This document shows, piece after piece, positions 26,299 through 59,516 of a stretch of 64,000 nucleotides of DNA. The notes under the pieces were generated by a model. The model was not told where the DNA came from, searched no databases, and was given only the letters and a program-made list of their open reading frames with translations. Source of the stretch: Mermis nigrescens (lineage: Eukaryota; Nematoda; Enoplea; Mermithida; Mermithidae); assembly GCA_036768485.1 (NCBI GenBank), contig JAVLUZ010000154.1:8358342-8422341 (forward strand), written 5' to 3'. The position numbers and the translations under genes were made by a program. Within the stretch, counting starts at the first letter, position 1. Each line of letters begins with the position of its first letter.

Positions 26299-26549
26299 CA
26301 TAGGTTGGCAGCACCAAAATTCTGGGGGTATGAAAAAATTTTCAAAGGTCAAAAAATGGTCTTAAAAATGGTTGTATGTCGAAAAAACACCATTTTTTCG
26401 ACGTTTCTCATCGAGCACTATCCAATAGCATCAAAAAATCGCTAGAAAAGCAGAAAAATTTTCAAAAATTGAATTCTGGAGGGGGTATTTTGATTTCTGG
26501 GGGTATTCCAACTTCTGGGAAGGCATACCCCCCCCCCCGCTCACGTGTG
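26299..26549 (+). mobile_element. hAT-like MITE, copy 4 (intron 3)
   Basis: CATAGGTTGGCAGC start and CACGTGTG end with the family's interior. Target duplications are not evident, so one end may be eroded. Confidence 0.65.
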
Positions 26550-26655
26550 GCGCCCAAGCCCGCCTCTTCCCCTAAATAGGGCCTACGCTACAATTTACCT
26601 CTTTATGCGCGGCACCATTTTCTTTAATTTGGACACACTATCTTTAAAATTTCAG

Positions 26656-34383: not shown

Positions 34384-34554
34384 GTGAGATTTTTTCATAA
34401 GCCGAAGTGGACCTTTAATAAGCATTATCACTAGTTTTGATAGCGTTGTATTCGAAACTGCAGATGTTTTTGTTCTACAGTGCCGTTTTCGTCTTCTTTA
34501 GTAGATTTAAGCGCTACAATTGTTTATACGCAAACCTACGCAGCCATCCGTGGG

Positions 34555-34801
34555 CAGCGCAAAAATTTCTGGGGGGGGTGTGAGATTTTTCAAAGGTCAA
34601 AAAATGGCCTTAAAAATGGTGGTATAGTGAAAAAAGCACCATTTTTCAACGCTTCTCATCGAGCACTATCCATTGGCATAAAACAATTGCGAAAAAAACA
34701 AAAAATTTGAAAAATTGAATTCTGGGGGTATTTTGATTTCTGGGAGGGTATTTTGGTTTCTGGAGGGTGTGCATACCCCCAAACCCCCACGCCCAGGTGT
34801 G
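34555..34801 (+). mobile_element. hAT-like MITE, copy 6 (intron 7)
   Basis: CATCCGTGGGCAGC start, GCCCAGGTGTG end. Duplications TACGCAGC (34547-34554) and TACGCGGC (34802-34809), 7 of 8. It lies just upstream of exon 8, within a 624-bp intron. Confidence 0.85.
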
Positions 34802-39463: not shown

Positions 39464-39469
39464 TATTAC
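39464..39469 (+). other. Maverick target-site duplication, left
   Basis: TATTAC directly abuts the left terminus. The same hexamer follows the right terminus at 49756-49761. Six-base duplications are standard for Mavericks. Confidence 0.9.
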
Positions 39470-40228
39470 AGTAGTATACCGTGTCTCCCTGGCATCAATG
39501 TTATAACATAGCCTATGCTTAAGCATAGGCGGGCGGGCTCAAACTTGCTACCTGGGGTAGGGCCAGGTAGCAATGCTGTAGCATAGGCAGTGATGAAGAA
39601 TAGACAGGCGTGTCCCTAAGCCTGAGGGGAGGGGGCCTCGACCTGCCTAAATGAGTTTCCCGGGAAACTCGAAAATTATTGATTTCTTAGGGCAAAGGTA
39701 CTCTTAAGCCTAGGGGATGGTGCCCCCAAGCCTGGGGAGCGTTCCCATAAGCCTAAGCGATTCTGTGGAGGTGGTCTAAAGGTCGCCAAGGCCTACCCGT
39801 AGGGAGGGGAGGTGGCACAAGAAGAGCAGTCCTGGGAAATGAGGGGTTTACCGGGAAACTTTGATTATTGATTGATTTTATCGATTTTTTAGTAAGTCAA
39901 GAACCAGCGGTCGGATCGGGCTCAAATTTGCAGAGTATGTTGAGTATATGTTAGGTATCCTATGTACAAACTTTTAGCGCGCAACCTACAGTATACCAGC
40001 ATCAGTTTACACTTTTGCATTTAGGAACCAATAGCCGGATTTTGTTCAATATTTTCAGGATATGATGTATATAGGCGAGGCATGCTATGCGCAGAATTTT
40101 AGCACGCAGCCTACAGTATACCAATTTACTTTACACTTGGCAGTATTTAGTTTTTAAGCACTATGTAGCAGAGTATGTGCTCATCAATTGATCGTTCGTG
40201 AAAGTATGCAAAATATTGCTTTGCTCGG
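39470..40228 (+). repeat. Maverick left terminal inverted repeat
   Basis: Inverted match to 48998-49755 with few differences. It contains the internal palindrome CCTATGCTTAAGCATAGG and, at its inner end, the last roughly 27 codons of the gene at 40147-40461. The TIR boundary therefore runs through a coding region. Confidence 0.92.
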
Positions 40229-40461
40229 TCATTGAAATTTTGCCACAGATTAGCTAGAGTGTGTATGTCTCGGAGAGTGCAACATTGTTTGATGAGGCGA
40301 GAAAAGTTGTTGAAAGCCTCTGCATAGTATTGCATTAAACTTTGTTTGTACTCGGCCTTGAGCAGGGGCCAAAAGTAGTTGCCTAAAGCAAAGGTAGATA
40401 CATTGTCTAGGCGAAGCAGGTGCATTAAGAAATGATTGTAAATTTTTTGTCCTTGATCCAT
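40147..40461 (-). CDS. Small Maverick protein, paralogue of 47375-47720
   Basis: 104 residues, no recognised family. It aligns along its whole length with the conceptual product near 47.4-47.7 kb. Shared anchors are Y-x-H-F near the N-terminus, a W-x-x-(F/L)-(M/L) block, and a C-terminal (I/L)-x-x-L-x-x-L-W-x-x-F-(N/D) motif followed by an aromatic-rich end. Its 3' end lies in the left TIR, so a piece of it is duplicated in the right TIR (48998-49078). Predicted all-helical, no signal peptide or membrane span. A degenerate TATTTAG lies about 25 bp upstream. It may be a structural or accessory protein; the function is unknown. Confidence 0.7.
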   Translation of the reverse strand: MDQGQKIYNHFLMHLLRLDNVSTFALGNYFWPLLKAEYKQSLMQYYAEAFNNFSRLIKQCCTLRDIHTLANLWQNFNDRAKQYFAYFHERSIDEHILCYIVLKN

Positions 40462-40496
40462 GTTTACAATATTTGGTAAAAGGTGATATTTAGGGC

Positions 40497-41273
40497 CTAC
40501 TGACGTCTGAAATGCAATTTAACGATAGTTTTGCCAAATTCAAAAGGCACGGGTTTATCTTGGTCGCTTTTAATGTCCATTTCAACAGTATTGAATGCTT
40601 TCTTGAGTACAGGTATATAATGGGGGCTAATGTACGAGTGATTTACAATATCCATGTATTTTCCTTCAATATTTACAACTTGCAGAAGTGGCGCAAAAGT
40701 ATTCCCAACTATTTGAGGCTCAACTATATCGCAATACACGTAAAAATTATGCATACCACCTAGCATATCAGGAGAATGATGGGCAGCTATAGTTAATTCT
40801 TGTGCGACAGTATAATTTATACTACTGAGTTGGCTTTCTATGAATCCCAGCATGTACATTAAATGTGTCGTTAATTTTAAGCTTCGAACGTGTTCAGTGT
40901 TAAGTTTCAGATGGCAGCATTTTTTATTATCATCATACTGCAAGCTTATATGTTCCGTGTAGTCAAATTTTTCGTTCTGACTCACCATTTTTAATCCCTC
41001 GCTGATTGTTTTAACGAGATCGTGTATACTTTGGTATCTGGCTCGGGGAATGAGCATCTTTATTCGTACATTATTTTTAAAATCGTAAAATTGTATCATA
41101 TTCTGATCCTCGGCAACATTGTGCCACGTATTTGCATAGATTATTTCAGCCAGACCAACTTCCCAGTCGCCATTTAGCACGATTCGCCTAGGCAGGCTGG
41201 TTATGAATGTGGCCGCGGTATTTGATTCTTGCGAATTGCTCGGAAGAGTGATGTAAAATTGTTTGGTATCCAT
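40497..41273 (-). CDS. Maverick penton/minor-capsid-type protein (PX-like)
   Basis: 258 residues. It opens 'FYITLPSNSQ' and reaches 'LNGDWEVGLAEI' by about residue 42. This arrangement is common to a protein encoded next to the capsid gene in metazoan Mavericks: short-strand N-terminus, a Pro-(Arg/Gln)-x-(I/V) turn and G-x-W-E-V-G-L-x-E-I. The rest alternates beta-like segments with no membrane span, consistent with a jelly-roll vertex protein. It is co-oriented with protease and capsid genes, 2 bp downstream of the protease stop. ATTATAAA-type sequence precedes the start. Identification as the penton is by position and motif; a structural prediction would settle it. Confidence 0.65.
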   Translation of the reverse strand: MDTKQFYITLPSNSQESNTAATFITSLPRRIVLNGDWEVGLAEIIYANTWHNVAEDQNMIQFYDFKNNVRIKMLIPRARYQSIHDLVKTISEGLKMVSQNEKFDYTEHISLQYDDNKKCCHLKLNTEHVRSLKLTTHLMYMLGFIESQLSSINYTVAQELTIAAHHSPDMLGGMHNFYVYCDIVEPQIVGNTFAPLLQVVNIEGKYMDIVNHSYISPHYIPVLKKAFNTVEMDIKSDQDKPVPFEFGKTIVKLHFRRQ

Positions 41274-41275
41274 GT

Positions 41276-41701
41276 TTATAATTCTAGTTTATTAAAGTAT
41301 TTATTAATTTTCTCGCTGAGCATAGATAAGACAGTATTTTTGAAAGGAATACCTCGACTTCTGCAAACTAGGAAATATACACACATGTGACCACAGCTTA
41401 TTGAAAAGAGCCCCTGTACCTGCGCATTATTGTACGCATATGTGAGTGCATTATTTGAAATATAATGCAATAAGTGGTTAAATGGTTTTCGCCCATAGCT
41501 GTCAAAATAGTCGCAGTGTTTATTGCTTTGAAAGTATATGGCGACCCAGTGCGAGCCAGGTGCATTGCTAGTATCTAAATTAATCACTAGAGCCGCAGGG
41601 TAGGTTCTAATAGGTGGCAGGCGGTCTAATGGAAAAACACCTAAAAATATATCCTTTTTAATATTACGCTGAAGAATTTTGAATATTTCAATGGTATTCA
41701 T
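41276..41701 (-). CDS. Adenain-type cysteine protease (PRO)
   Basis: 141 residues. Catalytic pattern of the C5/adenain family: His51 in 'GSHWVAIYF', Asp67 in 'YFDSYG', Gln96 and Cys103 in 'VQGLFSISCGHMCVYF'. The Gln-to-Cys spacing of seven matches adenain. The second conserved Cys follows at 107. It would mature capsid precursors during particle assembly. It is shorter than adenoviral proteases (about 200 residues), as is usual for Maverick enzymes. It lies between the capsid gene (3 bp upstream) and the penton-like gene, in one minus-strand cluster. Confidence 0.92.
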   Translation of the reverse strand: MNTIEIFKILQRNIKKDIFLGVFPLDRLPPIRTYPAALVINLDTSNAPGSHWVAIYFQSNKHCDYFDSYGRKPFNHLLHYISNNALTYAYNNAQVQGLFSISCGHMCVYFLVCRSRGIPFKNTVLSMLSEKINKYFNKLEL

Positions 41702-41704
41702 TTT

Positions 41705-42997
41705 CTATGCATTATAGTCATGAAACGTGTTTCGATTTTTGTCAATCATTATTAAGTTATCAAATTCGGCGTATATAATGATTTCCACGCCAGAATCAGG
41801 CAAATTGTCAGCAAACCTTACAGTTATGCTCGTTGTTCCTTCATGCACTAGATCCCAATGCCCTCCATCATCTGCGTCAGGCGTTAGGTCAAACACAAAG
41901 AAGCAGTGGCTTGTTTTAAACTCGTCTCTGCTAATGAAATTACCTTCACGTCCTATATCTAGTGCATCATACATCTGATTATAAGCTTGCAAGTACCTAT
42001 CGTGTTTGAATGCAATGTTGAGTGGATAAGCGGGGTAGGTTGTGCCGCCACACGTTACTTTTACATCGTATATGCTGTATGGTTTGAAATTAAATGGCGA
42101 TTTGGCCAAATTGCCTCGATATGCATTGCCATCGACACAAGCAAACACCATACGCCTAGGTAGCTGACCATTAAACAGGGTATAATTGGGCGTTTCTCTA
42201 GCAGGATTTGAAATGTGTAAGTTAGTCATAGCCACGCGCCTAATAGGATACTTTGCTGTATATGAGAGCATTGTTTGTTCAAGTGCTAAATTGACAGTGT
42301 CTAAAACCTCAACTTTTCGAATAAAAAATTTCATTTGTGAGACTTTTAATTCTAAAATAGCGTCTTCAAAGCACTGTAGTAAAAATGCGTCGCTATTTCT
42401 ATGTAATTCTAAGCGAAAATCGGTGAAATTAATCAGAAATCTGTCTTGCAAGAACAAGTCAATGTGCAATGGAGCCGCGACTTCTACAAAATTTTCATCT
42501 TTAAACATTTTAGCACGTATTTTGAATGCTTCATTGTCTTTTGTGTCCACATTGCCTCCTCCTTCGTGAAAGTAAAGTGCAGATTGCAGTTGAGAATGCT
42601 TTGCATCATAACCATAATTTAATTCAGTTTCAAAGTACGATCTGAATGCATACTTATCAGAGCTATCAAAAATTAAGCGGCCTCCTAGGAAACATTTCAC
42701 CTGCTTGAAGAAAGTCTTACCAATTAGATTGATAGGCGCATAGTCGGGTACTGATGCTCCAGCTGCGACTGTTGGTTTTTTGATCCTTAATAGCATATAA
42801 ATGTAGTTTTTGTTCAGCTGAAGATAATGGGGATCGGGTGGAATTCTAAATTCATAAGGCCCCTCGTTAGTGATAGGGTGCGTAGGTTGAATTTCATGCC
42901 AGAAGCCTTGCTTCACAACTACTTGGGTAGGAGGGACCGTAAAAAGGTCTAGTTCGGTTTTAGTACTTGGGATAGATTTTACGTCTATGAGAGCCAT
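41705..42997 (-). CDS. Major capsid protein, double jelly roll (PY-like)
   Basis: 430 residues from the ATG at 42997. The N-terminus 'TKTELDLFTVPPTQ' followed by 'G-x-W-x-E-I-x-P' and an acidic Pro-rich strand is the signature of the metazoan Maverick capsid family, often annotated as F54H12.2-like. The frame extends 11 codons upstream, to 43030. I prefer the internal ATG because CTATAAATA (43034-43042) lies about 40 bp before it, the same spacing seen for the other genes, and the family begins near this Met. The gene overlaps the preceding one by 38 bp. It is intact, with no stops or frameshifts. Confidence 0.92.
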   Translation of the reverse strand: MALIDVKSIPSTKTELDLFTVPPTQVVVKQGFWHEIQPTHPITNEGPYEFRIPPDPHYLQLNKNYIYMLLRIKKPTVAAGASVPDYAPINLIGKTFFKQVKCFLGGRLIFDSSDKYAFRSYFETELNYGYDAKHSQLQSALYFHEGGGNVDTKDNEAFKIRAKMFKDENFVEVAAPLHIDLFLQDRFLINFTDFRLELHRNSDAFLLQCFEDAILELKVSQMKFFIRKVEVLDTVNLALEQTMLSYTAKYPIRRVAMTNLHISNPARETPNYTLFNGQLPRRMVFACVDGNAYRGNLAKSPFNFKPYSIYDVKVTCGGTTYPAYPLNIAFKHDRYLQAYNQMYDALDIGREGNFISRDEFKTSHCFFVFDLTPDADDGGHWDLVHEGTTSITVRFADNLPDSGVEIIIYAEFDNLIMIDKNRNTFHDYNA

Positions 42998-43403
42998 TTT
43001 TGTCGTTTTTAGAAAAAGCATCAATTGCATTAGTATTTATAGACTTTGAGCGGTAACCAAGACCCTCTCCTTGCTGCTGCAGGGCTTGAGAGGCTTCATC
43101 AAAAAGTTGAGCAGCTTCTCGCTTTGAATGTTCCTTAGTAGACTCAAAAAGCGGTTTTCCTTGAGCCAAATCGGACGCTATGTTTGCACCTGCTGCCAAA
43201 GCATGCTTTCCAACACGCTTACCTATTGATTGCAAAACAGGGACGGCCATTCTAAAAAGTGAGCGGAAAAAGCTGCCAAGGCCAACACCCCGCTGGTATG
43301 GGATGCCTTTAAACCCATCCAACCCATAGCCGGTTTGGGCAGCCTGCCCAGTGTAGTATTCCAACCAAATGGTGTAATTGTCAGGAGTGAATTGTACATG
43401 CAT
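42960..43403 (-). CDS. Small virion-type protein with GLGSFF amphipathic segment
   Basis: 147 residues from the ATG at 43403 (an in-frame ATG at 43421 is less likely given the TATA motif at 43442-43450). The N-terminus 'MHVQFTPDNYTIWLEYY' is followed by a Gly/Tyr-rich stretch, then 'RGVGLGSFFRSLFRMAVPVL' leading into a Lys/Ala-rich helix with 'ASDLAQGKPLFES'. Metazoan Mavericks usually encode such a protein beside the capsid gene. An amphipathic, basic, Gly-Leu-Gly-marked protein could be a pVI- or pX-like core/lytic factor matured by the protease, but this is inference. Confidence 0.7.
   Translation of the reverse strand: MHVQFTPDNYTIWLEYYTGQAAQTGYGLDGFKGIPYQRGVGLGSFFRSLFRMAVPVLQSIGKRVGKHALAAGANIASDLAQGKPLFESTKEHSKREAAQLFDEASQALQQQGEGLGYRSKSINTNAIDAFSKNDKNGSHRRKIYPKY
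43034..43042 (-). promoter_or_regulatory. CTATAAATA motif of the capsid gene
   Basis: Minus-strand CTATAAATA preceded by AAAGT and followed by CT. It is about 40 bp upstream of the capsid ATG and lies inside the coding region of the preceding gene, where it encodes part of K-S-I-N-T. Confidence 0.7.
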
Positions 43404-43441
43404 TTTTAAAATTTTATTCACATAAAAAATAAAACAATAAG

Positions 43442-43450
43442 TATTTATAG
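43442..43450 (-). promoter_or_regulatory. CTATAAATA motif of the 43.4-kb gene
   Basis: Same extended word (AAAGTCTATAAATACT) as at 43034-43042, about 43 bp upstream of the ATG at 43403. Its CTATAA doubles as the last codon and stop of the shifted C-terminal frame of the upstream gene. Confidence 0.7.
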
Positions 43451-43578
43451 ACTTTCATCCCAGTCAAATTCGTCGCCTGCAGCAAAAATCTCCTTACCTT
43501 GTCTATTAGCAATACTTTCTAGGGGTACATTTGTGCGATTAAACACTTTCAGCAATTCTTTTGTGCCAGGATGCCTGC

Positions 43579-44010
43579 TTATTTTTTGCGCTCACGTGCC
43601 AGATCATTAACTAAATCTGTGATGTTTGAACCATTGATTTTTTGACCATCTATTACAAGCTCACCATTAGGCTCGATTTCCACAAATGGGTTTGTGCGAA
43701 TGTAGTGTAGAAGGAGTTTTGCCTTTGGAATCTGATTTTTCGGTATACCAGTGAGTATTTCTTCGTCATTAATTGTGTCACTTGCATGTCCTACAATAGT
43801 AGCTTTATATGGTTGCTGCTTCTGTTCGAGCAATCGCTTAAATTTGCCTAGTATTTGATTATATTTTACAAGTTTTACATCAGATGGTACATTTTTGCTG
43901 CTTAAAATTTGTTGCATCTCATTATTTAAGTTATCAAGCAAAACGTCGACTGGTTTAGAACGTTCACTGATTTCAGCGGGTATTAAAATCATTTTTTCAG
44001 TGTGCTTCAT
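43579..44010 (-). CDS. Conserved Maverick protein, frameshifted near its C-terminus
   Basis: 143 residues in the open part. A helical N-terminal half carries 'KLVKYNQILGKFKRLL', and the second half 'IPKAKLLLHYIRTNP', 'GELVIDGQ' and 'GSNITDLVNDLARERKK'. The K-A-K-x-L-L-x-x-(I/L) ... G-S-N-I-x-D-L-V-N-D order is a familiar conserved Maverick protein. The frame stops right after a run of six A. Another frame then continues for about 45 codons (to a stop at 43445-43447) with Pro-Gly and Leu-Leu-x-x-(F/L)-N-x-x-N-V-P features that fit the family's C-terminus. A one-base slip, true mutation or sequencing error in the A-run explains this. Function unknown, probably virion-associated. Confidence 0.7.
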   Translation of the reverse strand: MKHTEKMILIPAEISERSKPVDVLLDNLNNEMQQILSSKNVPSDVKLVKYNQILGKFKRLLEQKQQPYKATIVGHASDTINDEEILTGIPKNQIPKAKLLLHYIRTNPFVEIEPNGELVIDGQKINGSNITDLVNDLARERKK

Positions 44011-44357
44011 TGCCTGCGTGTTATTGCATCAGCTAGTAAAGTACCTGCAATTGTAAGAATAGGAGTGAGTAAAAGTGGAAGAAAACCACCGTCTTGTATT
44101 AAAATACCTCTTTTTTGTTTTGTGTTTGCCTGTTTATTGTTTGCCAAGTACCTTATTTGATGCTGGTATCTTCGAAGTTTGTTGATATCCTTTTCAGAAA
44201 AGGGAATATTACCGTTAAGAAAGTTGTTTGCACAGTCACAGAGACAAAGAATCTGATCTTTACTGGCAGTATTTATAATAGCGTCTCTTTGAGGTTTCCT
44301 TGCTTGACTTAGAAGGTGTAAACAAATAATATTGCGTCTTAATCGTTCTTTACCCAT
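44007..44357 (-). CDS. Small Maverick protein with C-terminal membrane-like segment
   Basis: 116 residues: a helical N-terminal part with 'LLSQARKPQRDAIINTA' and a Cys-rich 'ILCLCDCANNFLNG', a basic middle, and a C-terminal hydrophobic segment 'GGFLPLLLTPILTIAGTLLA'. Very common in invertebrate Mavericks, function not established. A Gly-Gly just before the hydrophobic stretch could be a protease site. It overlaps the next gene by 4 bp and the ATPase by 19 bp. CTATAAATA lies about 39 bp upstream. A decayed relative lies at 60359-60590. Confidence 0.75.
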   Translation of the reverse strand: MGKERLRRNIICLHLLSQARKPQRDAIINTASKDQILCLCDCANNFLNGNIPFSEKDINKLRRYQHQIRYLANNKQANTKQKRGILIQDGGFLPLLLTPILTIAGTLLADAITRRQ

Positions 44358-45010
44358 TTTGTTTTATTTGATTTCATCACCTTTTTTGTAGTATTTATAG
44401 ATTTTTGCATATAAACAGCTGGATGACTGCTGAAGATATCCGTTTTTAGCCTAAGTACAGCTCTAGCGTTCTGAGTAAGATCAATCAACAGATAGCCATG
44501 CAGCTGTGCAGTAGCATCAGAGTAGGCTTCTATGAAATATTTCGGATTGGCAGGATAAAGCTGACGAGATAAAACTTGCGCCTGTAATTGATCGGCAGGA
44601 TTTTTAAATAAAACTATACAGTCAGAGTTTATACGTGAAGTTCTGAGTCCCTCAAAGAACACGCTTTGAACAATGTGAATAATGCTAATGTTCCAATGAT
44701 GACAACTACGTGTAAAGAGCTGTACAATCTGAGTATTACCTTTGCTCTCTTGCACCAGATCGTCGAGAATCAAAAGTTGCGGCACAGGACTAAACTGTTT
44801 CAAGTATGAAAAATCAGGAAGCCCCTCTATAAACGAAACACTTTCAATTTTCCTGTGAAGTGCTTGATTTTCTGCAAAGCACCACCAAATCTTTTTAATT
44901 TTGGTATCAATCAAGTGTGCTCCATTTTCGATTAATTGCCCAACAAATGTAGTTTTACCGGACTTTGTTGGTCCAGAAATAAGACAGGTGAAAGGGTGTT
45001 TGAAAATCAT
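44339..45010 (-). CDS. Genome-packaging ATPase (FtsK/HerA, A32-like)
   Basis: 223 residues. Walker A 'GPTKSGKTT' at residues 13-21 and Walker B 'LLILDD' at 79-84. A conserved 'HHWNISIIHIVQS' sensor region follows and then 'RTSRINSDCIVLFKNPAD'. This is the viral genome-packaging ATPase that accompanies capsid genes in Mavericks and related viruses. The frame is intact. It faces the TBP-like gene across a 43-bp divergent promoter region. Its 3' end overlaps the next gene and contains that gene's TATA-like motif. Confidence 0.93.
   Translation of the reverse strand: MIFKHPFTCLISGPTKSGKTTFVGQLIENGAHLIDTKIKKIWWCFAENQALHRKIESVSFIEGLPDFSYLKQFSPVPQLLILDDLVQESKGNTQIVQLFTRSCHHWNISIIHIVQSVFFEGLRTSRINSDCIVLFKNPADQLQAQVLSRQLYPANPKYFIEAYSDATAQLHGYLLIDLTQNARAVLRLKTDIFSSHPAVYMQKSINTTKKVMKSNKTKWVKND
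44392..44400 (-). promoter_or_regulatory. CTATAAATA motif of the 44.0-44.4 kb gene
   Basis: About 39 bp upstream of the ATG at 44357, inside ATPase coding sequence, again encoding K-S-I-N-T. Confidence 0.65.
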
Positions 45011-45053
45011 TTTTGTTTATAAATAACAATTTATATATAGGTATTTATAGAAA
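45011..45053. promoter_or_regulatory. 43-bp divergent promoter, ATPase / TBP-like gene
   Basis: Contains minus-strand CTATAAATA at 45042-45050 (about 36 bp from the ATPase ATG) and plus-strand TTATAAATA at 45017-45025 (about 33 bp from the TBP-like ATG). Each motif abuts the other gene's start codon. A TATATATA lies between them. Confidence 0.7.
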
Positions 45054-45572
45054 ATGGTTACAATACAGAACATTGTGCTAACTACAGCACTACCAAACAT
45101 GCTAAATCTAGATGATATCTACCTTAAATTGCCAAATACTACGCAATACAATCGCCTAAAATTTCCAGGCATCATATTTCGATTACTCCCAGCTACGTTG
45201 CTGATTTTCAAGTCGGGCAAAATTGTATGTGTTGGAGCTAAAACTGTTCAAGAACGAGAAAATACGATAAAGGCATTCATCCATATACTAAAAATGGAGA
45301 ATTTAATGTTGAAAATAAAGCCTGTGCTGTTTGTTGGCTCGGCTAACTTGGGATTTCGCATTGATCTTTGCAAGTTTTATGAGCTGGTGAAAAGAAAATG
45401 CATGTACGAAGTAGAATTATTTATTGGCCTAGTATTCAAATTTAGGAATGTGACTTTTTCACTCTTTACAAGCGGAAAAATGATTCTCACAGGTGCAAAA
45501 CACAAGCACGAGTTGCATATAGCGTATAAAATAGTTTCAACAATGCTTGAGAAATGCAGATTAGATACATAA
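45054..45572 (+). CDS. TATA-binding-protein homologue encoded by the Maverick
   Basis: 172 residues, the size of a TBP core. Two direct repeats of the TBP fold are visible. Repeat 1 has 'IQNIV', 'RLKFPGIIFRL' and 'LIFKSGKIVCVGAK'. Repeat 2 has 'ELFIGLVFKF' and 'SLFTSGKMILTGAK'. The four phenylalanines that kink TATA DNA in eukaryotic TBP have counterparts at F37, F52, F123 and F138, and the S-G-K-x-x-x-x-G-A-K signature is kept in both halves. The repeat-1 QN pair is kept; its repeat-2 equivalent is not obvious. The frame is intact. It is transcribed opposite to the ATPase. It probably binds promoters of the element; capture from a host or viral TBP is inferred. Confidence 0.92.
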   Translation: MVTIQNIVLTTALPNMLNLDDIYLKLPNTTQYNRLKFPGIIFRLLPATLLIFKSGKIVCVGAKTVQERENTIKAFIHILKMENLMLKIKPVLFVGSANLGFRIDLCKFYELVKRKCMYEVELFIGLVFKFRNVTFSLFTSGKMILTGAKHKHELHIAYKIVSTMLEKCRLDT

Positions 45573-45575
45573 TAT

Positions 45576-45990
45576 TCTAAAGTTTACAAGAACTTTTCCA
45601 GACTTTACAAAAATATTCCAAACTTTACAAAAAATATTCCAAACTTTACAAAAAATATTCCAAACTTTACAAAAGATATTTCCAACTTTACAAAAAATAT
45701 TCCAAACTTTACAAAAGTACTATGCTTAAGCATGCAAAATTTATTCCAAACTTTACAAAAAATATTCCAAACTTTACAAAAAATTTTCCAAACTTTACAA
45801 AAAAATTTCCAAACTTTACAAAAAATTTTCCAAACTTTACAAAAAATATTCCGAACTTTACAAAAAATTTTCCAACCTTTACAAAAAATTTTCCAAACTT
45901 TACAAAAAATTTTCCAAACTTTACAAAAAATATTCCAAACTCTGCGAAAAAATTTTCCAAACTTTTACAAAAAATATTACAAACTTTATA
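45576..45990 (+). repeat. Minisatellite, about 20-21 bp unit TTTACAAAAAATATTCCAAAC
   Basis: About twenty near-identical units of 20-21 bp fill the gap between the TBP-like gene and integrase. One unit near 45716 is broken by TATGCTTAAGCATGC, which recalls the TIR palindrome. The units keep several frames open by chance, so the apparent 80-100-codon frames on both strands are not taken as genes. Confidence 0.85.
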
Positions 45991-46274
45991 AAAATTTGCA
46001 CCTTTTTAGATTAGAACGTTTGTCATGGATGAGGTGATGTGTTCATCGATGTTTTTTTATGTAAAGATTCGCTTAATAAAATTTGGTCTCTGGGCTTAGA
46101 AATTCCCATAAATTGAACAGTACGCTCAATTCGCCTCTAATGGCGTGTTCATCAATTTCTAGCAATGTTCGCCTATATTGTTTGCTCATTTTTGACCAAA
46201 AATACGCGCCAAGTGATTGAAAAAATACTGTCCAAGCTCCATTTTTTTAAATTCGCAAGAGACGAAATCATTAT
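45991..46274. other. Maverick non-coding stretch
   Basis: Between the minisatellite and the integrase stop. No open frame or repeat recognised. Confidence 0.4.
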
Positions 46275-47337
46275 TTATACTTTTAGCACATTAGAGACCC
46301 ATGAATCGAATTTGGGCGGGTAGCCCCTCCAGCGTACCAGATAATCAGTTTTTGCGCCTCTTTTTCTTGTTTTTATAATTTTTTCAATAATGAACAAATC
46401 GTCAGTGGAAACATTAATTTTTTGCAGTTCGGGCTCGTAAAAAATACCATCTAGTTTTTCGCCTATTTGATCTTCTAAAACATAGACAGGCGGGGTTCTA
46501 GCGTATCTTTCTTTAACTACAAAATACTCCTCGGTCCAATTGGGCCAGAACCCTTTTTCGAATGCACGCTTCACTTTACTTATTCTGACTTTGTCGCCAA
46601 TTTCGAATTTGAATTCAGTTTGATTATCGCCCGTAAGGCGGAATGCTCTGTTTAATATTTCACGCTCGTTCTTAGCCGTCACATCCGCCGGAGACGTACC
46701 TATTGTTCTATGAAACGAATTGTTGTAATTTTTCATAATTTTTGGCAAAATGTCAATATACTTGTACGTGTTGCTTTTAGTAAAATACTTCCACATGCGT
46801 TCTTTGAGTGTTCTATTGAAACGCTCTACTACAGATGCTTTCATTTCGCTTTTAGTAGTGAAAAAATCGACAGATTCTGATTTCAAAAATTTCTGAAACT
46901 CGTTGTTTACAAATTCTTCTCCTGCGTCCGTTTGTAGCTTATAGGGTTTGCGGTTAGACTACGCGAAAATGTGTTTAAAAGCCTCGACAATGTCTTTTGA
47001 ATTTTTGCTTTTTAGTGGAACGGACCATGCGTACTTTGAGAAAATGTCTATGCAGTTGAGTAGGTACTTAAAATTTTCGTTATGGTCGGCTAGGGATTGC
47101 AAATCGACCAAATCCGCCTGCCATTGCTCGTCTATGCTGCTCACTAGGACTTTGTTTCGAGAATAACGCTTGAATGCGGGTTTGTGTAAAGTGTAGGTAG
47201 GTTGTTTTTCCAGCCATGCTTTTACCTGTTCCAATTTGGCGGTCGGGGCGAATCCTTTTGACACGAGTGTAAAGTTGGTTGACGTCAGTAAACCCGCTTT
47301 GCGGGTCGTAGTACAATTTTTTCAGTATTTTATCCAT
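46275..47337 (-). pseudogene. Maverick integrase with chromodomain, inactivated
   Basis: A retroviral-type integrase read from 47337 downward. The start 'MDKILKKLYYDPQSGF' is typical. A frame change near 47.25-47.26 kb is needed to reach 'EQVKAWLEKQPTYTLHKP' and the first catalytic Asp in 'QWQADLVD'. An in-frame TAG at 46959-46961 separates this from the second catalytic Asp ('LQTDAGEEF') and the Glu ('ASVVERFNRTL'). A C-terminal chromodomain ('YLVRWRGYPPKFDSWV') follows. All three DDE residues survive. Both lesions are needed to break it and neither is in the catalytic motifs, so the loss looks recent. It would have inserted Maverick ends with 6-bp duplications. Confidence 0.92.
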
Positions 47338-47374
47338 TTCCGTTTTTCTTCTGAATTTTATTTATTTATTAACA

Positions 47375-47720
47375 TTACAACACACGATTTACATGATAAG
47401 CGATACAGTTTTCGTACAAATTCTCCCACATATTTTTTCCATTTATGTCGAACGACGACCATAGACTACATAGAGCATCGATATCTTTACTCAAAATCGT
47501 TTGCTTTATATTTTGCGCAAAGACCCAGAACGCGTTGCGTTTATCACTTTCGCGTTGCTCTTTTTTAAACTCTTCGCTCATGAATCCCCAGAAACACGAG
47601 CCTATATTTTGAACATTTCTGACGCTCAAGTAGCGGTTGTTTGCTTTTTCAACGAGCCTTTGAACAAAATGATGATACGCTAGTTCGCCAAGAGAAGAAA
47701 TGGCTAGTTGCTTTAAGATA
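47375..47720 (-). CDS. Small Maverick protein, paralogue of 40147-40461, start unclear
   Basis: The frame is open from about 47720 to the stop at 47375. Homology with the 40.1-40.5 kb gene extends upstream of the longest conventional start. 'YHHF', 'GSCFWGFM' and 'IDALCSLWSSFD' align with 'YNHF', 'GNYFWPLL' and 'IHTLANLWQNFN'. The first ATG in frame is well inside the homologous region, so the original ATG seems lost or a non-ATG codon is used. CTATAAATA at 47745-47753 sits at the right distance for a start near 47.71 kb. Function unknown; two divergent copies in one element suggest a useful role. Confidence 0.6.
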
Positions 47721-47744
47721 TAAAATATACCTGGCGCGCGCCCT

Positions 47745-47753
47745 TATTTATAG
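47745..47753 (-). promoter_or_regulatory. CTATAAATA motif upstream of the 47.4-47.7 kb gene
   Basis: Reads GTCTATAAATAAG on the minus strand. It supports a transcript starting near 47.72 kb. Confidence 0.6.
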
Positions 47754-47757
47754 ACAT

Positions 47758-48087
47758 TTAGTAGGTAGCTTTGGCCTTTCCCGCCTCGGCCTGCTGCTCG
47801 GTGTAGCGCTTCAGCACTCGCTGCCCTGCTTCTTGCATGGCCCTATTAAATTCGCAGCACCTAGGGCACATTTGTATATTCAAGTACCACCTGCCTGCAT
47901 TTGTTTCGAAAAAATCCCTTTCAGAACTATTTTTCTGGCAAAAGTAGCATAGGTGAATCATCAGGGGGAACATGGGGCGCTCCAGATTTCTACCACATAG
48001 CTCTATAGGCGGTCGAATCGACCTCCCATGCGGCTTATTTTCTCCTTCAGTAAACGGCAATTTTTTGATTTCTCTTAATTCTTTCAT
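47758..48087 (-). CDS. Small zinc-ribbon-type Maverick protein
   Basis: 109 residues with two Cys pairs, 'LCYFC' and 'CPRCC', spaced about 26 residues apart as in a zinc ribbon. A basic N-terminal part precedes them and a Gln/Ala-rich helical tail follows. No catalytic motif. It faces the polymerase fragment across a divergent promoter. It could be a DNA-binding or transcription accessory factor; the function is unknown. The 3' end is only 5 bp from the neighbouring TATA-like motif. Confidence 0.65.
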   Translation of the reverse strand: MKELREIKKLPFTEGENKPHGRSIRPPIELCGRNLERPMFPLMIHLCYFCQKNSSERDFFETNAGRWYLNIQMCPRCCEFNRAMQEAGQRVLKRYTEQQAEAGKAKATY

Positions 48088-48136
48088 TTTTTTAAGTACT
48101 AGAAAATCCCAAGTTAAAGCAGTAAAACACTGCTAG

Positions 48137-48161
48137 TATTTATGGGTTTTGTCTATAAATA
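48137..48161. promoter_or_regulatory. Divergent promoter, zinc-ribbon gene / polymerase fragment
   Basis: Minus-strand CCATAAATA (48137-48145, one mismatch) and plus-strand GTCTATAAATAAG with the core at 48153-48161. The plus-strand motif is about 42 bp before the ATG at 48199. Confidence 0.65.
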
Positions 48162-48198
48162 AGAATACATTTTGACTTCAGTTGAGTTCTATTTTATC

Positions 48199-48996
48199 AT
48201 GGATTTAAATCGATATTATGAAGTAGGTGAACTTCCACCTATTTCTGTTCGTAGGTTCAAATCTACTGCAAAAACGTTTCTGTTGAAGTTTCGAAACATT
48301 TATGAGTGCCCTAATATAATTGAGGTTTTTGAGCCAATTTTTAAAGATGTTATCAAAAAAATGTTACGTGACTACCCTGCAGACTGTATGGTAGGCATTG
48401 AAATTAGGCACCCAAGTTTATATGAGCGTGTAATAGTCCCATTCACTCAGCGTCAATATTTGAATGCTGACAAGGTTTTGAGTATTATGGAAAATGTTGC
48501 GCAATCTAAAAAGGAGTTTTGCTTTGATGAATATATGACATTCAGGGTAGTTGTTGTTGATAAAAAACCCCAGAGGGGTTCAGGTTTGAGTACAATTCCT
48601 TCAGATGTTAGGACATTTTGCAAAAATGGAGGAGCATACACTAAAATTGCATCAAATGATAATTTATCACTACCCCGAGCTGTTGTAACAGGAATCGCAA
48701 AGCTTGACAATAATTATAAATGGGAGACTATTAGAAAAGGAGAAGAAAACCGTTGCACTCTGCAAAAGCAGCTAGCTTTAGACTTAACGCGTAAGGCTAA
48801 CCTCAGCACCAAAGAAGAAATATATGGTATAGATGCTGTAGAAAAAATTCAAAAGGTACTAGCGCCTGACTACCAAATCATAGTATACTCAGGCAATGTT
48901 ATATTTTTCGAAGGACCTAAAGCTGACAAGGTAATTCATTTGCACGCTGCTTATGATCACTTTGATTTAATTACAAAAATGCCCAAGCTGCAGTAA
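48199..48996 (+). CDS. DNA polymerase B, N-terminal fragment only
   Basis: 265 residues from the ATG at 48199 (an upstream TTG is less likely given TATA spacing). It matches the region that precedes exonuclease and polymerase domains in Maverick PolB: 'NIIEVFEPIFKDVI', 'GIEIRHPSL', 'FDEYMTFRVVVV', then 'NDNLSLPRAVVTGIAKL', 'IQKVLAPDYQIIVYS' and 'HFDLITKMP'. The family continues past this last motif into a Cys-rich zinc segment and the catalytic domains. Here the frame stops at 48996, 1 bp before the right TIR. No exonuclease or polymerase motif is present, so replication functions are lost. The D-N-x-(C)-L-P-R-A and H-(Y/F)-D-x-I strings look OTU-like, with Ser replacing the usual Cys. Confidence 0.88.
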   Translation: MDLNRYYEVGELPPISVRRFKSTAKTFLLKFRNIYECPNIIEVFEPIFKDVIKKMLRDYPADCMVGIEIRHPSLYERVIVPFTQRQYLNADKVLSIMENVAQSKKEFCFDEYMTFRVVVVDKKPQRGSGLSTIPSDVRTFCKNGGAYTKIASNDNLSLPRAVVTGIAKLDNNYKWETIRKGEENRCTLQKQLALDLTRKANLSTKEEIYGIDAVEKIQKVLAPDYQIIVYSGNVIFFEGPKADKVIHLHAAYDHFDLITKMPKLQ

Positions 48997-48997
48997 G

Positions 48998-49755
48998 CCG
49001 AGCAAAGCAATATTTTGCATACTTTCACGAACGATCAATTGATGAGCACATACTCTGCTACATTGTGCTTAAAAACTAAATACTGCCAAGTGTAAAGTAA
49101 ATTGGTATACTGTAGGCTGCGTGCTAAAATTCTGCGCATAGCATGCCTCGCCTATGTACATCATATCCGGAAAATATTAACAAAATCCGGCTATTGTTTC
49201 CTATATGCAAAAGTGTAAACTGATGCTGGTATACTGTAGGTTGCGTGCTAAAAGTTTGTACATAGGATACCTAACATATACTCAACATACTCTGCAAATT
49301 TGAGCCCGATCCGACCGCTGGTTCTTGACCTACTAAAAAATCGATAAAATCAATCAATAATCAAAGTCTCCCGGGAAACCTCTCATTTCATAGGACTGCT
49401 CTTCGTGTGCCACCTCCCCTCCCTATGGGTAGGCCTTGGCGACCTTTAGACCACCCTCCACAGAATCGCTTAGGCTTATGGGAACGCTCCCCAGGCTTGG
49501 GGCACCACCCCCTAGGCTTAAGAGTACCTTTGCCCTAAAAAATCATTAATTTTCGAGTTTCCCGGGAAACTCATTTAGGCAGGTCAAGGCCCCCTCCCCT
49601 CAGGCTTAGGGACACGCCTGTCTATTCTTCATCACTGCCTATGCTACAGCATTGCTACCTGGCCCCACCCCAGGTAGCAAGTTTGGGCCCGCCCGCCTAT
49701 GCTTAAGCATAGGCTATGTTATAAAATTGATGCCAGGGAGACACGGTATACTACT
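48998..49755 (-). repeat. Maverick right terminal inverted repeat
   Basis: Inverted copy of 39470-40228. Its inner end holds the C-terminal codons of the 40.1-kb gene, a sign that the left end was copied onto the right, replacing the polymerase 3' part. Confidence 0.92.
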
Positions 49756-49761
49756 TATTAC
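49756..49761 (+). other. Maverick target-site duplication, right
   Basis: TATTAC, identical to 39464-39469. Confidence 0.9.
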
Positions 49762-49808
49762 ATTATACGGTTTTTTATTTTGAATCGCCTATTCACACTG
49801 TTTGCCAG

Positions 49809-49905
49809 GCATTTGCACCCATTTACTGAAGTTACAATGAGCGACTTGATCCTCGAATATAGTCAAGTGAATTTCAGAATCATTTTTGTTGGATATGTCC
49901 TAATG
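49809..49905 (+). CDS. Patched-like gene, exon 11, copy 1
   Basis: Acceptor TTTGCCAG (49808), donor GTGAGT (49906); phase 2 in, phase 0 out. Encodes 'TMSDLILEYSQVNFRIIFVG' and the start of membrane span 2, matching Patched S-x-x-x-x-(D/N)-(I/M)-L-x-x-(F/Y)-S and the following hydrophobic block with G-Y-x-L-M. A second copy is at 54691-54787. Confidence 0.92.
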
Positions 49906-50571
49906 GTGAGTAGTCTCCGTGTGCACCAAATGAAATTTCGAGTTCATTTTTTAAAAGTTGACTTCTACTAATTAATTGAATAACTCAATTATTGTTTAAT
50001 TAATTAATTGACTAATTAAGTATATAATTGCCATTATTAATTGGTATTAATCAATGCATTTAGATTGAAAGGAGGTGGTTTGCATGAAAAACAAAATATG
50101 ATTGACTGACTTGCCTTCTAGAAAAATCGTGTACATCAGCCTAAATAAACTATTTGAAACCAAAAAAAAGCGAAAAAATTCTTGTAGAACAGGCCATAGT
50201 ATTTTTTATGAAATTTCCGGTCCGCTTTTCAGTTCATCAACAAAAAATTCAAAATTCGGTAACTTGCTTCAATAATTTAATCATGCGAGCTCATATTGAG
50301 AGGTTTTTTCTCCAAACAAGCATCATTCTCTAGATTCCTTGGCTACATAATACAGAAAAGAATTAGGTGAGAGTTAATAAATAAAGATTACGTCCAATTT
50401 TCTCATTTGACTGGTTTTAGTGGTCAAAATTTTCTTGCGATGAGGCTACGCGAGTTGAAAAAATGTAAAATGGTAATCAACGAAATTGGAAGCTAATCTT
50501 CGATGGTTTTTTATGTAAAATGCAATGTTATTGAATACTCTTAAATTTTCTGAAATTTCCTCGATCTTCAG

Positions 50572-50658
50572 TTCATTTACGCTGCCGTATCACTGCAGAA
50601 TTTCGCAGATTGTGGCGAGTCGTCTTGCATTGGAGTGGGATTAGCTGGATGCTTTCTG
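50572..50658 (+). CDS. Patched-like gene, exon 12, copy 1
   Basis: Acceptor ATCTTCAG (50571), donor GTAAAG (50659); phase 0 in and out. Encodes 'FIYAAVSLQNF' and 'GVGLAGCFL': the end of span 2 and start of span 3 of the sterol-sensing domain (family: Y-A-x-x-x-x-x-R-W ... V-G-L-A-G-V-L-L). Second copy at 55454-55540. Confidence 0.92.
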
Positions 50659-50817
50659 GTAAAGGCATTCATCGGCTAAATCATTCTGTATTTGGATAAT
50701 TCAAATTAATTTTTCACCTATTCATATGCTCATCTTAGGCAAAAAAGCTTTCAAAACGACTTACAAATCTTAGTTACGAGACTTACAGTTTGAAGTAAAG
50801 CTAAGGTGACCAATAAT

Positions 50818-51450
50818 ATAAGATTTTGCTAAGCCATATTGGCTGACGTGAAATCTATATTCCACTAACAAACAAATTAGACTTTACATATGCATTGTTC
50901 ATTCTCTTTAGCTAAATACAGCTCGTTGTAAGCGTAAAAGGCGGAGCTTGCTCACGCCCAAACAGCGTTAGTTAGGTACATAACTCAGTGTTCATGAAAG
51001 CGAGTAAACTTCAATAAAAGCGCCAGAAGAAGTGATAAGAAGAATTTGATTTATCGCTTGCGAACGTGTTACAAGATAAGCGCATAAAGGGGATCTAAAA
51101 CGAAATACTGAGACTAAGTAATATACAGTGCGCAAAAGAAAGAACCAGATCCCGGTCGATGAGTGAGAGTTGAGCATGATCAACTTGTCTTAAGTCCCTC
51201 TAGCCTTCGTTAGGTTGTATTTCCAAAGAACCGCGATTGTTGCGACGACCTCGCGTCTGGTTGAATTTGCTGCCGCGTCCTTGAGACTTTCTTGTAAAGA
51301 ATGTGATAAAATTTTGGGTAACGGGAGGGTGGGCATATGTAAAGTCTAATTTGTTTGTTAGTGGAATATAGATTTCACGTCAGCCAATATGGCTTAGCAA
51401 AATCTTATATTCCACTACACAAACAAATTAGACTTTACATATGCATGTTC
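50818..51450. repeat. DIRS terminal region with inverted and split repeats
   Basis: The block ATAAGATTTTGCTAAGCCAT continuing through ACAAACAAATTAGACTTTAC (50818-50893) recurs inverted at 51333-51409. Its distal part recurs again in direct orientation at about 51408-51445. Such permuted short repeats are what DIRS/PAT elements use in place of LTRs. Confidence 0.75.
51190..51310 (-). pseudogene. Possible Arg/Gly-rich Gag tail fragment
   Basis: In one minus-strand frame the text is 'KSQGRGSKFNQTRGRRNNRG', similar to the basic RG-rich C-termini of DIRS Gag proteins. It lies on the wrong side of the recombinase for an intact element, so it may be part of another copy or chance. Confidence 0.3.
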
Positions 51451-54630: not shown

Positions 54631-54690
54631 AACTACTTATTACATTATACGGTTTTTTATTTTGAATCGCCTATTCACACTGTTTGCCAG

Positions 54691-54787
54691 GCATTTGCAC
54701 CCATTTACTGAAGTTACAATGAGCGACTTGATCCTCGAATATAGTCAAGTGAATTTCAGAATCATTTTTGTTGGATATGTCCTAATG
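54691..54787 (+). CDS. Patched-like gene, exon 11, copy 2
   Basis: Identical to the 49809-49905 exon including splice sites. Copy 2 is the one nearer to exon 13. Joining exon 12 copy 1 (phase 0 out) to this exon (phase 2 in) would shift the frame, so only one pair can be used in a coding mRNA. Confidence 0.9.
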
Positions 54788-55453
54788 GTGAGTAGTCTCC
54801 GTGTGCACCAAATGAAATTTCGAGTTCATTTTTTAAAAGTTGACTTCTACTAATTAATTGAATAACTCAATTATTGTTTAATTAATTAATTGACTAATTA
54901 AGTATATAATTGCCATTATTAATTGGTATTAATCAATGCATTTAGATTGAAAGGAGGTGGTTTGCATGAAAAACAAAATATGATTGACTGACTTGCCTTC
55001 TAGAAAAATCGTGTACATCAGCCTAAATAAACTATTTGAAACCAAAAAAAAGCGAAAAAATTCTTGTAGAACAGGCCATAGTATTTTTTATGAAATTTCC
55101 GGTCCGCTTTTCAGTTCATCAACAAAAAATTCAAAATTCGGTAACTTGCTTCAATAATTTAATCATGCGAGCTCATATTGAGAGGTTTTTTCTCCAAACA
55201 AGCATCATTCTCTAGATTCCTTGGCTACATAATACAGAAAAGAATTAGGTGAGAGTTAATAAATAAAGATTACGTCCAATTTTCTCATTTGACTGGTTTT
55301 AGTGGTCAAAATTTTCTTGCGATGAGGCTACGCGAGTTGAAAAAATGTAAAATGGTAATCAACGAAATTGGAAGCTAATCTTCGATGGTTTTTTATGTAA
55401 AATGCAATGTTATTGAATACTCTTAAATTTTCTGAAATTTCCTCGATCTTCAG

Positions 55454-55540
55454 TTCATTTACGCTGCCGTATCACTGCAGAATTTCGCAGATTGTGGCGA
55501 GTCGTCTTGCATTGGAGTGGGATTAGCTGGATGCTTTCTG
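55454..55540 (+). CDS. Patched-like gene, exon 12, copy 2
   Basis: Identical to the 50572-50658 exon. Its phase-0 donor fits exon 13. Confidence 0.9.
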
Positions 55541-56212
55541 GTAAAGGCATTCATCGGCTAAATCATTCTGTATTTGGATAATTCAAATTAATTTTTCACC
55601 TATTCATATGCTCATCTTAGGCAAAAAAGCTTTCAAAACGACTTACAAATCTTAGTTACGAGACTTACAGTTTGAAGTAAAGCTAAGGTGACCAATAATT
55701 TAATAGCCAATAAAGACATAAGTAAAATAAGCTCGCATGATAGAAATAAAGATTTTAAGACTTTCTTATCGTTGAATCAGTGTTTATATATCCTGCGGCT
55801 GTTTTAAATTTTCCAGTTTCTAATAATGTTAAGAAAATGTGAAAATAGATAATTCGAAGTATTTCGTCTTATGAAAAAATAACATGAGGCGATGTATCTA
55901 TTGAGGACTATCTATTGCCTGTTTACCCCACCGGTTTCCTCTTATCCATAAATTTCGCAAGACATCTCGTATGTTGCATATTTTGAACCGGGTCGAATTT
56001 TTTAGACAAGACAGATTCAACTCAAAATGTCGCTCGAATTGAATGATTTCAGAATTTTTTTCCAGCTTTTTCCCTCCTCAAAGTTTACTTTATACCAACA
56101 GATCTAAAAAAGTATTTAAGATTATTCAAATACGCAGGCTTATTGTCTTATAAAATACTAGATCAGAATTTTATTACGGATTTTATCTTGCAACCTGATT
56201 TTCCCACTTGAG

Positions 56213-56509
56213 GTGCTATTTTCGTGCACGGCTGGTTTCGGCGTTTGTAACTTTTTGGGCATCCACTTCAACGTTGGATCGACTCAGGTGGCTCCGTTTA
56301 TAACGCTTGGGCTGGGCCTCAGTGATATATTCGTGCTGGTGCACGTCTACGACGAATTGATGGGCCAAAAGGGTGTTTTGGGACTGGAGTTGGGTTTATT
56401 GTTAAAACAAACCGGATCGGCCACCCTTATCACCAGCCTAAGTAGCATAGCGGCTTTTTCCGTTGGTCTTCTGATTCCGATTCCGGGCCTGAAGACCCTT
56501 TGCAAGCAG
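56213..56509 (+). CDS. Patched-like gene, exon 13 (sterol-sensing domain core)
   Basis: Acceptor CCACTTGAG (56212), donor GTAGCC (56510); phase 0 in and out, 99 codons. Encodes spans 3-5: 'FLGIHFNVGSTQVAPFITLG' (family: L-L-G-I-x-F-N-A-x-(S/T)-T-Q-V-x-P-F-L), 'LGLSDIFVLVHVYDE', 'LLKQTGSATLITSLSSIAAF' and 'LIPIPGLKTLC'. The family's G-x-x-x-D(D/H) membrane acid site reads G-L-S-D, so the first Asp is Ser and only the second is acidic. Confidence 0.96.
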
Positions 56510-56696
56510 GTAGCCCAAATTTTTTTTTGCGATTTTATGCAATGATTTCCTCATATTCAAATATTGACTTGGGACATCCGATCCCCAAAATAAAATTTTT
56601 TACATTTTTTTGTGTTTCAGGGAATTTGACTCGGCTTGAGCTCAAAATCAGGATGTTATTAGTGCACGTTTATAACTTTAGCTGTTTCGTATTGAT

Positions 56697-59166: not shown

Positions 59167-59279
59167 GTACCTTCGATTGATTTGTCTCAGTTATATAACC
59201 TCATTTTTATGTGGTTCTTAAGTAAAATAATTGTGATATTTAAACGCAGCTCAATTACGTACTGGCATAGGATGGTCAC

Positions 59280-59516
59280 CATATGTGGGAAGCCAGAAAA
59301 TTCTGGGGGGACAAGATTTTTCAAAGGTCAAAAAATGGCCTTAGAAATGGTCGTATGGCGAAGAAAACACAATTTTTCGATGTTTCTCATCGAGCACTAT
59401 CCATTGGCATCAAAAAATTGCGAAAAAAACAAAAAAATTTCAAAAATTGAATTCTGGGGGTATTTTGGAATCTCGGGGGGGGGGCATACCCCCTTGAACC
59501 TCCGCACCCAGGTGTG
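59280..59516 (+). mobile_element. hAT-like MITE, copy 9
   Basis: CATATGTGGGAAGC start, GGTGTG end. Duplications ATGGTCAC (59272-59279) and CTGGTCAC (59517-59524), 7 of 8. Confidence 0.8.

Follow-up and report, generated by a model that had tools for sequence, protein, structure and literature searches.

A TATA-binding protein as a putatively selected component of a Polinton/Maverick-derived element in the nematode Mermis nigrescens

The genome of the nematode Mermis nigrescens contains a Polinton/Maverick-derived element of 10,286 bp that, judging from its sequence, encodes its own TATA-binding protein (TBP) as a selected component. The element lies in a window of 64,000 bp (contig JAVLUZ010000154.1, positions 8,358,342 to 8,422,341 of the forward strand), to which all coordinates below refer. 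Its TBP may help to run the element's own promoters in the host nucleus, and we think it probable, with some reserve, that the protein binds the element's own TATA boxes and recruits host TFIIB and RNA polymerase II, in which case it may also escape the control exerted on host TBP.

The TBP gene (45054-45572, + strand) is an intact open reading frame of 172 codons, as a preliminary description of the sequence had claimed, and corresponds to a complete TBP core, the frame leaving no space for an N-terminal extension. Its product matches the Pfam family TBP (PF00352) with 128.1 bits, against a curated cut-off of 22.9, in two stretches that represent the two TBP-type repeats. An AlphaFold2 model obtained with a 16-row alignment has a mean pLDDT of 89.6 (79.8-89.6 across the five models) and shows the saddle fold of the TBP family that the preliminary description had led us to expect, and structural alignment matched it to yeast, human, plant and archaeal TBPs along the whole chain. 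A chance open reading frame at this position is ruled out by the Pfam score and the structure model. In the structural alignments with solved structures, identity to eukaryotic TBPs amounts to 30-33%, and that to the TBP of Sulfolobus (1mp9) to 38-41%, compared to 30-33% for the other archaeal chains listed. When searched alone against 5.8 billion proteins, the window protein (P0001) returned 24 candidates, none of them at an E-value of 0.001. A query combining it with the TBP of a second Polinton contig, L001 (see below), produced 500 candidates, 16 of which reached an E-value of 0.01, including the L001 protein itself.

The element (39470-49755) is bounded by long terminal inverted repeats (TIRs; left arm 39470-40228, right arm 48998-49755; 96.5% identity over a 770-bp alignment), which carry AGTAGTATACC...GGTATACTACT at their ends and have the target-site duplication TATTAC on either side (39464-39469 and 49756-49761). 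Long TIRs, AG...CT ends and a 6-bp target duplication are defining features of Polintons/Mavericks, and all of them are found here. A search of the genome_contigs collection with an alignment of the major capsid protein (MCP) that contained no TBP information yielded, from 36 candidate stretches, a single locus, L001 (JAJRVU010000309.1), an 11.6-kb contig with Polinton gene content that is binned with a planctomycete, most likely as the result of a binning error.

The window element has the following gene content. A divergent spacer of 43 bp (45011-45053) separates the TBP gene from that of an A32-type packaging ATPase (44339-45010, - strand), which is homologous to the L001 ATPase and whose Pox_A32 score (E 1.4e-4, 21.8 bits) lies just under the cut-off of 22.8. 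Further along the same strand follow two small conserved genes that have counterparts in the same place in L001, p116 (44007-44357; 35% identity) and p143 (43579-44010; 29% identity), and then a pVI-like gene without a Pfam match (42960-43403), the double jelly roll MCP (41705-42997; PF21738, E 8.5e-4, below the curated cut-off), an adenovirus-type C5 protease (41276-41701; PF00770, E 2.3e-4, at the cut-off) and a penton-like minor capsid protein (40497-41273; 29% identical to the L001 gene). With these Pfam scores at or below the cut-offs, it is the homology to L001, together with 1058 MCP homologues at an E-value of 0.001 (best 78%), that supports the assignment of the capsid module with its C5 protease and A32 ATPase, as known from Polintons/Mavericks. 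On the other side, an array of 20 tandem copies of a 21-bp unit (45571-45994) starts at the TBP stop codon. Beyond it lie an integrase gene (46275-47361, - strand) whose parts occupy more than one frame, with the rve core (E 1e-4, below the cut-off) and the chromodomain (E 1.8e-8) on separate pieces, and a small zinc-ribbon-like gene with two CxxC pairs (47758-48087, - strand), which is 31% identical to the L001 frame 1813-2097 (+ strand) over a 77-column alignment (E 1e-7) and could conceivably encode a zinc-ribbon-type transcription partner. The last gene, of 265 codons and OTU-like (48199-48996, + strand), ends at the TIR and has no Pfam match. The designations pVI-like, penton-like and OTU-like are tentative. 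A PHROGs search returned no match. Near both ends of the element, two further genes (40147-40518 and 47375-47743, - strand) resemble distant paralogues of each other (25% identity, E 8e-11). The TBP gene thus sits beside the packaging ATPase in a Maverick-type element, as the preliminary description had it. The Maverick identity itself stands as far as the TIRs, the capsid module and the type of integrase are concerned, whereas a full-length protein-primed DNA polymerase (PolB) is absent and the integrase of the window copy is interrupted.

Several features surround the element in the window. A 1072-bp segment is present twice (49750-50821 and 54632-55703) with 99.9% identity; its second copy includes the last 6 TIR bases and the target duplication, so that the segment duplication seems to have occurred later than the insertion. 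About 6.4 kb from the element lies an exon of the Patched-type sterol-sensing domain (56162-56542, + strand; Pfam E 4e-18), with Patched-1 as its match in the PDB (E 2e-20), which points to an animal as the probable host. Outside the element, a repeat of some 200-280 bp is dispersed in many copies (5749-6019, 9170-9438, 26298-26550, 34544-34801, 59279-59483 and others).

The TBP gene is not a singular acquisition. A search of the nematode's own genome (523,963,438 bases in 860 contigs) gave at least 150 scored TBP matches among 2120 first-look candidates, with 74-100% identity, and 134 of the 150 matches listed are free of internal stops. Forty of these 150 copies were examined, namely the 20 best-scoring ones, including the window copy (L002-L021), and 20 of lower rank (L022-L041). 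By identity, they fall into four lineages, A (20 copies), B (10), C (3) and D (7). In 39 of them, the ATPase gene lies head to head with that of TBP at a distance of 40-57 bp, as extrapolated from the match, and in the remaining one, L040, the arrangement is disturbed. Between the four lineages, the mean dN/dS of TBP is 0.13-0.20 (at dS 0.33-1.06), which shows that purifying selection acted on the protein during the element's spread. Within lineages, the values are 1.48 for A (dS 0.003), 0.42 for B, 0.33 for C and 0.13 for D. Relative to L003, the window copy has six replacement and two silent changes and, on this count, may be decaying. The ratio in lineage A would agree with a recently captured host TBP that drifts as a passenger, yet the ratios between lineages contradict such a history, as do the distance from eukaryotic TBPs and the presence of the gene at the same place in L001, so that we regard it as very improbable indeed. 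The preliminary description had itself envisaged, as the case against its proposal, a single copy nearly identical to the host TBP. What we see are at least 150 matches, a second Polinton contig and only 30-33% identity to the solved eukaryotic TBPs, a set that does not include the host's own; the number of copies, the low identity and the between-lineage dN/dS all counter a recent capture from the host. In lineage C (L032-L034), a TBP close to that of lineage A (87-90% identical to the window copy) is combined with a D-like spacer, as seen in comparison to L003, L022 and L035, a mixture that hints at recombination between the lineages of the element.

The residues at the functional faces of TBP have been retained to different degrees. 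All 40 copies possess the four DNA-kinking phenylalanines noted in the preliminary description. From an alignment, we assume that the published C-lobe glutamates correspond to E119 and E121 of the element TBP, and the published N-lobe basic position to R231 of human TBP. E121 occurs in all 40 copies and E119 in 37, with a lysine in its place in the other three (L016-L018), whereas the equivalent of R231 is a glutamate in 39 of 40. The first of the two symmetric minor-groove asparagines is invariant in the 40 copies, while the second is replaced by leucine (33 copies) or methionine (7 copies), and one threonine has been exchanged for valine. The possession of both asparagines is not diagnostic for membership in the TBP family. 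The changed asparagine and threonine, for which we presume roles in the minor groove, may shift the DNA preference of the protein. In summary, the element TBP shares with its cellular counterparts (PF00352) the two repeats, the saddle fold, the four phenylalanines, the SGK...GAK motifs and the TFIIB-binding glutamates, but differs from them in the altered asparagine and threonine, the acidic residue at the N-lobe basic position, the lack of an N-terminal extension and its carriage by a mobile element.

Candidate target sites for such a protein are present in the element itself. With gene starts set at the first ATG of each frame (for MCP at the third, following its homologues), a sense-strand TATAAATA box lies 36-46 nt upstream of six genes, comprising the virion genes for MCP (43034-43041, - strand), the pVI-like protein (43442-43449, - strand) and the ATPase (45042-45049, - strand), as well as p116 (44392-44399, - strand, within the 3' portion of the ATPase frame), the OTU-like gene (48154-48161, + strand) and the TBP gene itself (45018-45025, + strand). 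Boxes stand before 6 of 13 element starts, a number that averaged 0.25 and never exceeded 2 when the sequence was dinucleotide-shuffled 1000 times; the looser pattern TATAWAWR recovers the same six (shuffle mean 1.07, maximum 5), and no box occurs within 60 nt of the other seven starts. Overall, the element contains nine TATAAATA sites, against a mean of 1.2 and a maximum of 5 in 300 shuffles; in the remaining 53.7 kb of the window there are 16, which likewise exceeds the expectation of roughly 7. The box facing TBP is found in all 40 copies, always 36-38 nt before the ATG, that facing the ATPase in 38 of 40 and the p116 box in 33 of the 34 copies in which the p116 start can be placed. With one representative per lineage, 16 of 16 box columns in the divergent spacer are identical, compared to 14 of the 34 other columns (Fisher p 3e-5). 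In L001, by contrast, TATAWAWR precedes only 3 of 13 starts, and the spacer between its TBP and ATPase genes contains no box.

These observations suggest how the protein might work. Produced from the divergent TBP/ATPase promoter, it would fold into the DNA-kinking saddle and bind the TATAAATA boxes that stand 36-46 nt before many element genes; its C-terminal stirrup would then recruit host TFIIB and hence host RNA polymerase II. Since the N-lobe surface that host regulators would contact has changed, it could possibly escape the control to which host TBP is subject. DNA binding, TFIIB binding, promoter use and regulator escape are all proposed here from sequence and predicted structure. In published work (PMC7221094), two C-lobe glutamates of TBP are described to hold TFIIB and to be often lost in viral TBPs, nearly all viruses that carry a TBP-like sequence are reported to have a TFIIB-like protein as well, and a basic N-lobe patch is assigned to the binding of TFIIA, TAF1, Mot1 and Brf. 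A Pfam scan of the element's reading frames, covering all but the first part of the integrase (47080-47361), detected no member of the TFIIB family. The preliminary description had the element setting up transcription of its late or virion genes partly independently of host TBP; the boxes before virion genes lend support to part of this, while an effect specific to late genes and an independence from host TBP would be conjectural. A different role is conceivable, because the boxes are canonical TATAAATA sequences, which host TBP should suffice to read. The element TBP could then act mainly on the host, where it might, for instance, titrate TFIIB or occupy host promoters, and the retention of the TFIIB glutamates alongside changes in the other faces would agree with such an activity. 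However, its gene shares a promoter region with that of the ATPase in 39 of 40 copies, which fits, without proving it, a function within the programme of the element itself, and we consider an action chiefly on the host unlikely.

The same Pfam scan revealed no polymerase family, and the longest stop-to-stop frame in the element, at 443 aa, is that of MCP. The 265-aa gene, which on the strength of a motif we tentatively take to be the OTU-like N-terminal part of PolB, has no clear relative in the PDB (best E 0.26). Among 20 further copies sampled, TIR sequence follows this gene in all 11 with a visible end, at a distance of 5-162 bases in nine and of about 380-590 bases, too little for a polymerase, in two copies of lineage B; seven others have no match to the gene in the stretch, and two contain only its start. 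Three other copies agree (3 of 3), with no polymerase in the pieces scanned. The gene is broken in several copies and open at 265 aa in only 4 of the 20. Lacking a full PolB, the element is classed as Polinton-derived, and its family probably replicates with help. It might even depend on another Maverick or a DNA virus in a virophage-like manner, with its TBP serving promoters there. The missing polymerase and the consistent position of the TIR speak for such a dependence, which we nevertheless judge to be rather improbable and which would be compatible with the use of the element's own promoters that we favour.

The origin of the gene can be approached through L001. The TBP of this contig (Pfam E 1.9e-45), which shares 32% identity with P0001, or 34% in an alignment of 161 columns, is again encoded by a gene that lies head to head with that of the ATPase, after which homologues of p116 and p143 come next, and the preliminary description's suggestion to look for the gene next to the packaging ATPase of other Mavericks was thus borne out. 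Five metagenome proteins (P0123-P0127, on contigs of 983-3147 bases) group with it (support 100/99). Two trees were calculated, both without P0133, a near-copy of P0132, and the second also without the long-branched P0135 and P0137. The window TBP groups with TBPs of the eukaryotic type and is separated from the archaeal TBPs (89/80 in the first tree, 96/96 in the second). Unconstrained, both trees separate the window family from the L001 group, each with 100/99 in the second, and the best tree uniting them is 7.8 log units lower. Taken by themselves, the free trees would indicate two captures of TBP, one in the window family and another in L001-like Polintons. A single clade is not rejected, though (p-AU 0.108 and 0.222), the branches are long, and the two groups share the position, the orientation and the same two following genes, a gene block that speaks for common descent. 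Two captures are possible, but we doubt them. Scans of viral_contigs with P0001, MCP, the ATPase, the MCP and TBP alignments and the L001 TBP and MCP retrieved no relative. The viral TBPs predicted in BFVD are at most 22% identical to the element TBP among the 50 matches listed, which led us to reject the known types of giant virus as donors of the gene; a distant common origin with giant-virus TBPs is compatible with these values.

In its MCP, C5 protease, A32 ATPase and rve integrase with chromodomain, as well as its AG...CT TIRs and 6-bp target duplication, the element resembles Polintons/Mavericks and adintoviruses, but it differs from them in its size of 10.3 kb, the lack of a full PolB and the addition of TBP. 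We found no report of a TBP in a Polinton, Maverick or adintovirus in the open-access literature, and in the passages compared (PMC10675990, PMC11071308, PMC11071296, PMC12220804, PMC10120064, PMC10328495, PMC11464507, PMC12085832, PMC10132985) the only carriers of TBP are giant viruses and mirus-like elements. Virus-borne TBPs are already known from large DNA viruses. CpV-BQ1 reportedly carries a TBP together with two TFIIB proteins and is presumed to act on the host polymerase (PMC12085832), and TBP is reported for 59% of mirusvirus genomes (PMC10132985). These viruses have genomes of hundreds of kb and often their own TFIIB or polymerase, whereas the present element comprises 10 kb, with no TFIIB detected. 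A further parallel is offered by herpesvirus TBP mimics such as ORF24 of KSHV, reportedly likewise a viral promoter factor working with host RNA polymerase II; however, it is described as a mimic with a noncanonical mode of DNA binding, while the element combines a genuine member of PF00352 with TATA boxes of canonical sequence.

In the present case, TBP appears to be the sole such factor that an element of 10 kb brings along, with the TFIIB-binding face kept and the face for host regulators changed. As a broader and distinctly more tentative proposal, TBP may be an old part of a Polinton branch, encoded head to head with the ATPase, through which a small element without a full PolB runs its own TATA promoters via host TFIIB and escapes TBP control, a one-gene promoter switch standing between small host-transcribed DNA viruses and self-equipped giant viruses. 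If the protein works, it would provide a DNA parasite with a minimal route to influence promoter choice and would bear on the stepwise assembly of giant-virus transcription from Polinton-like ancestors.
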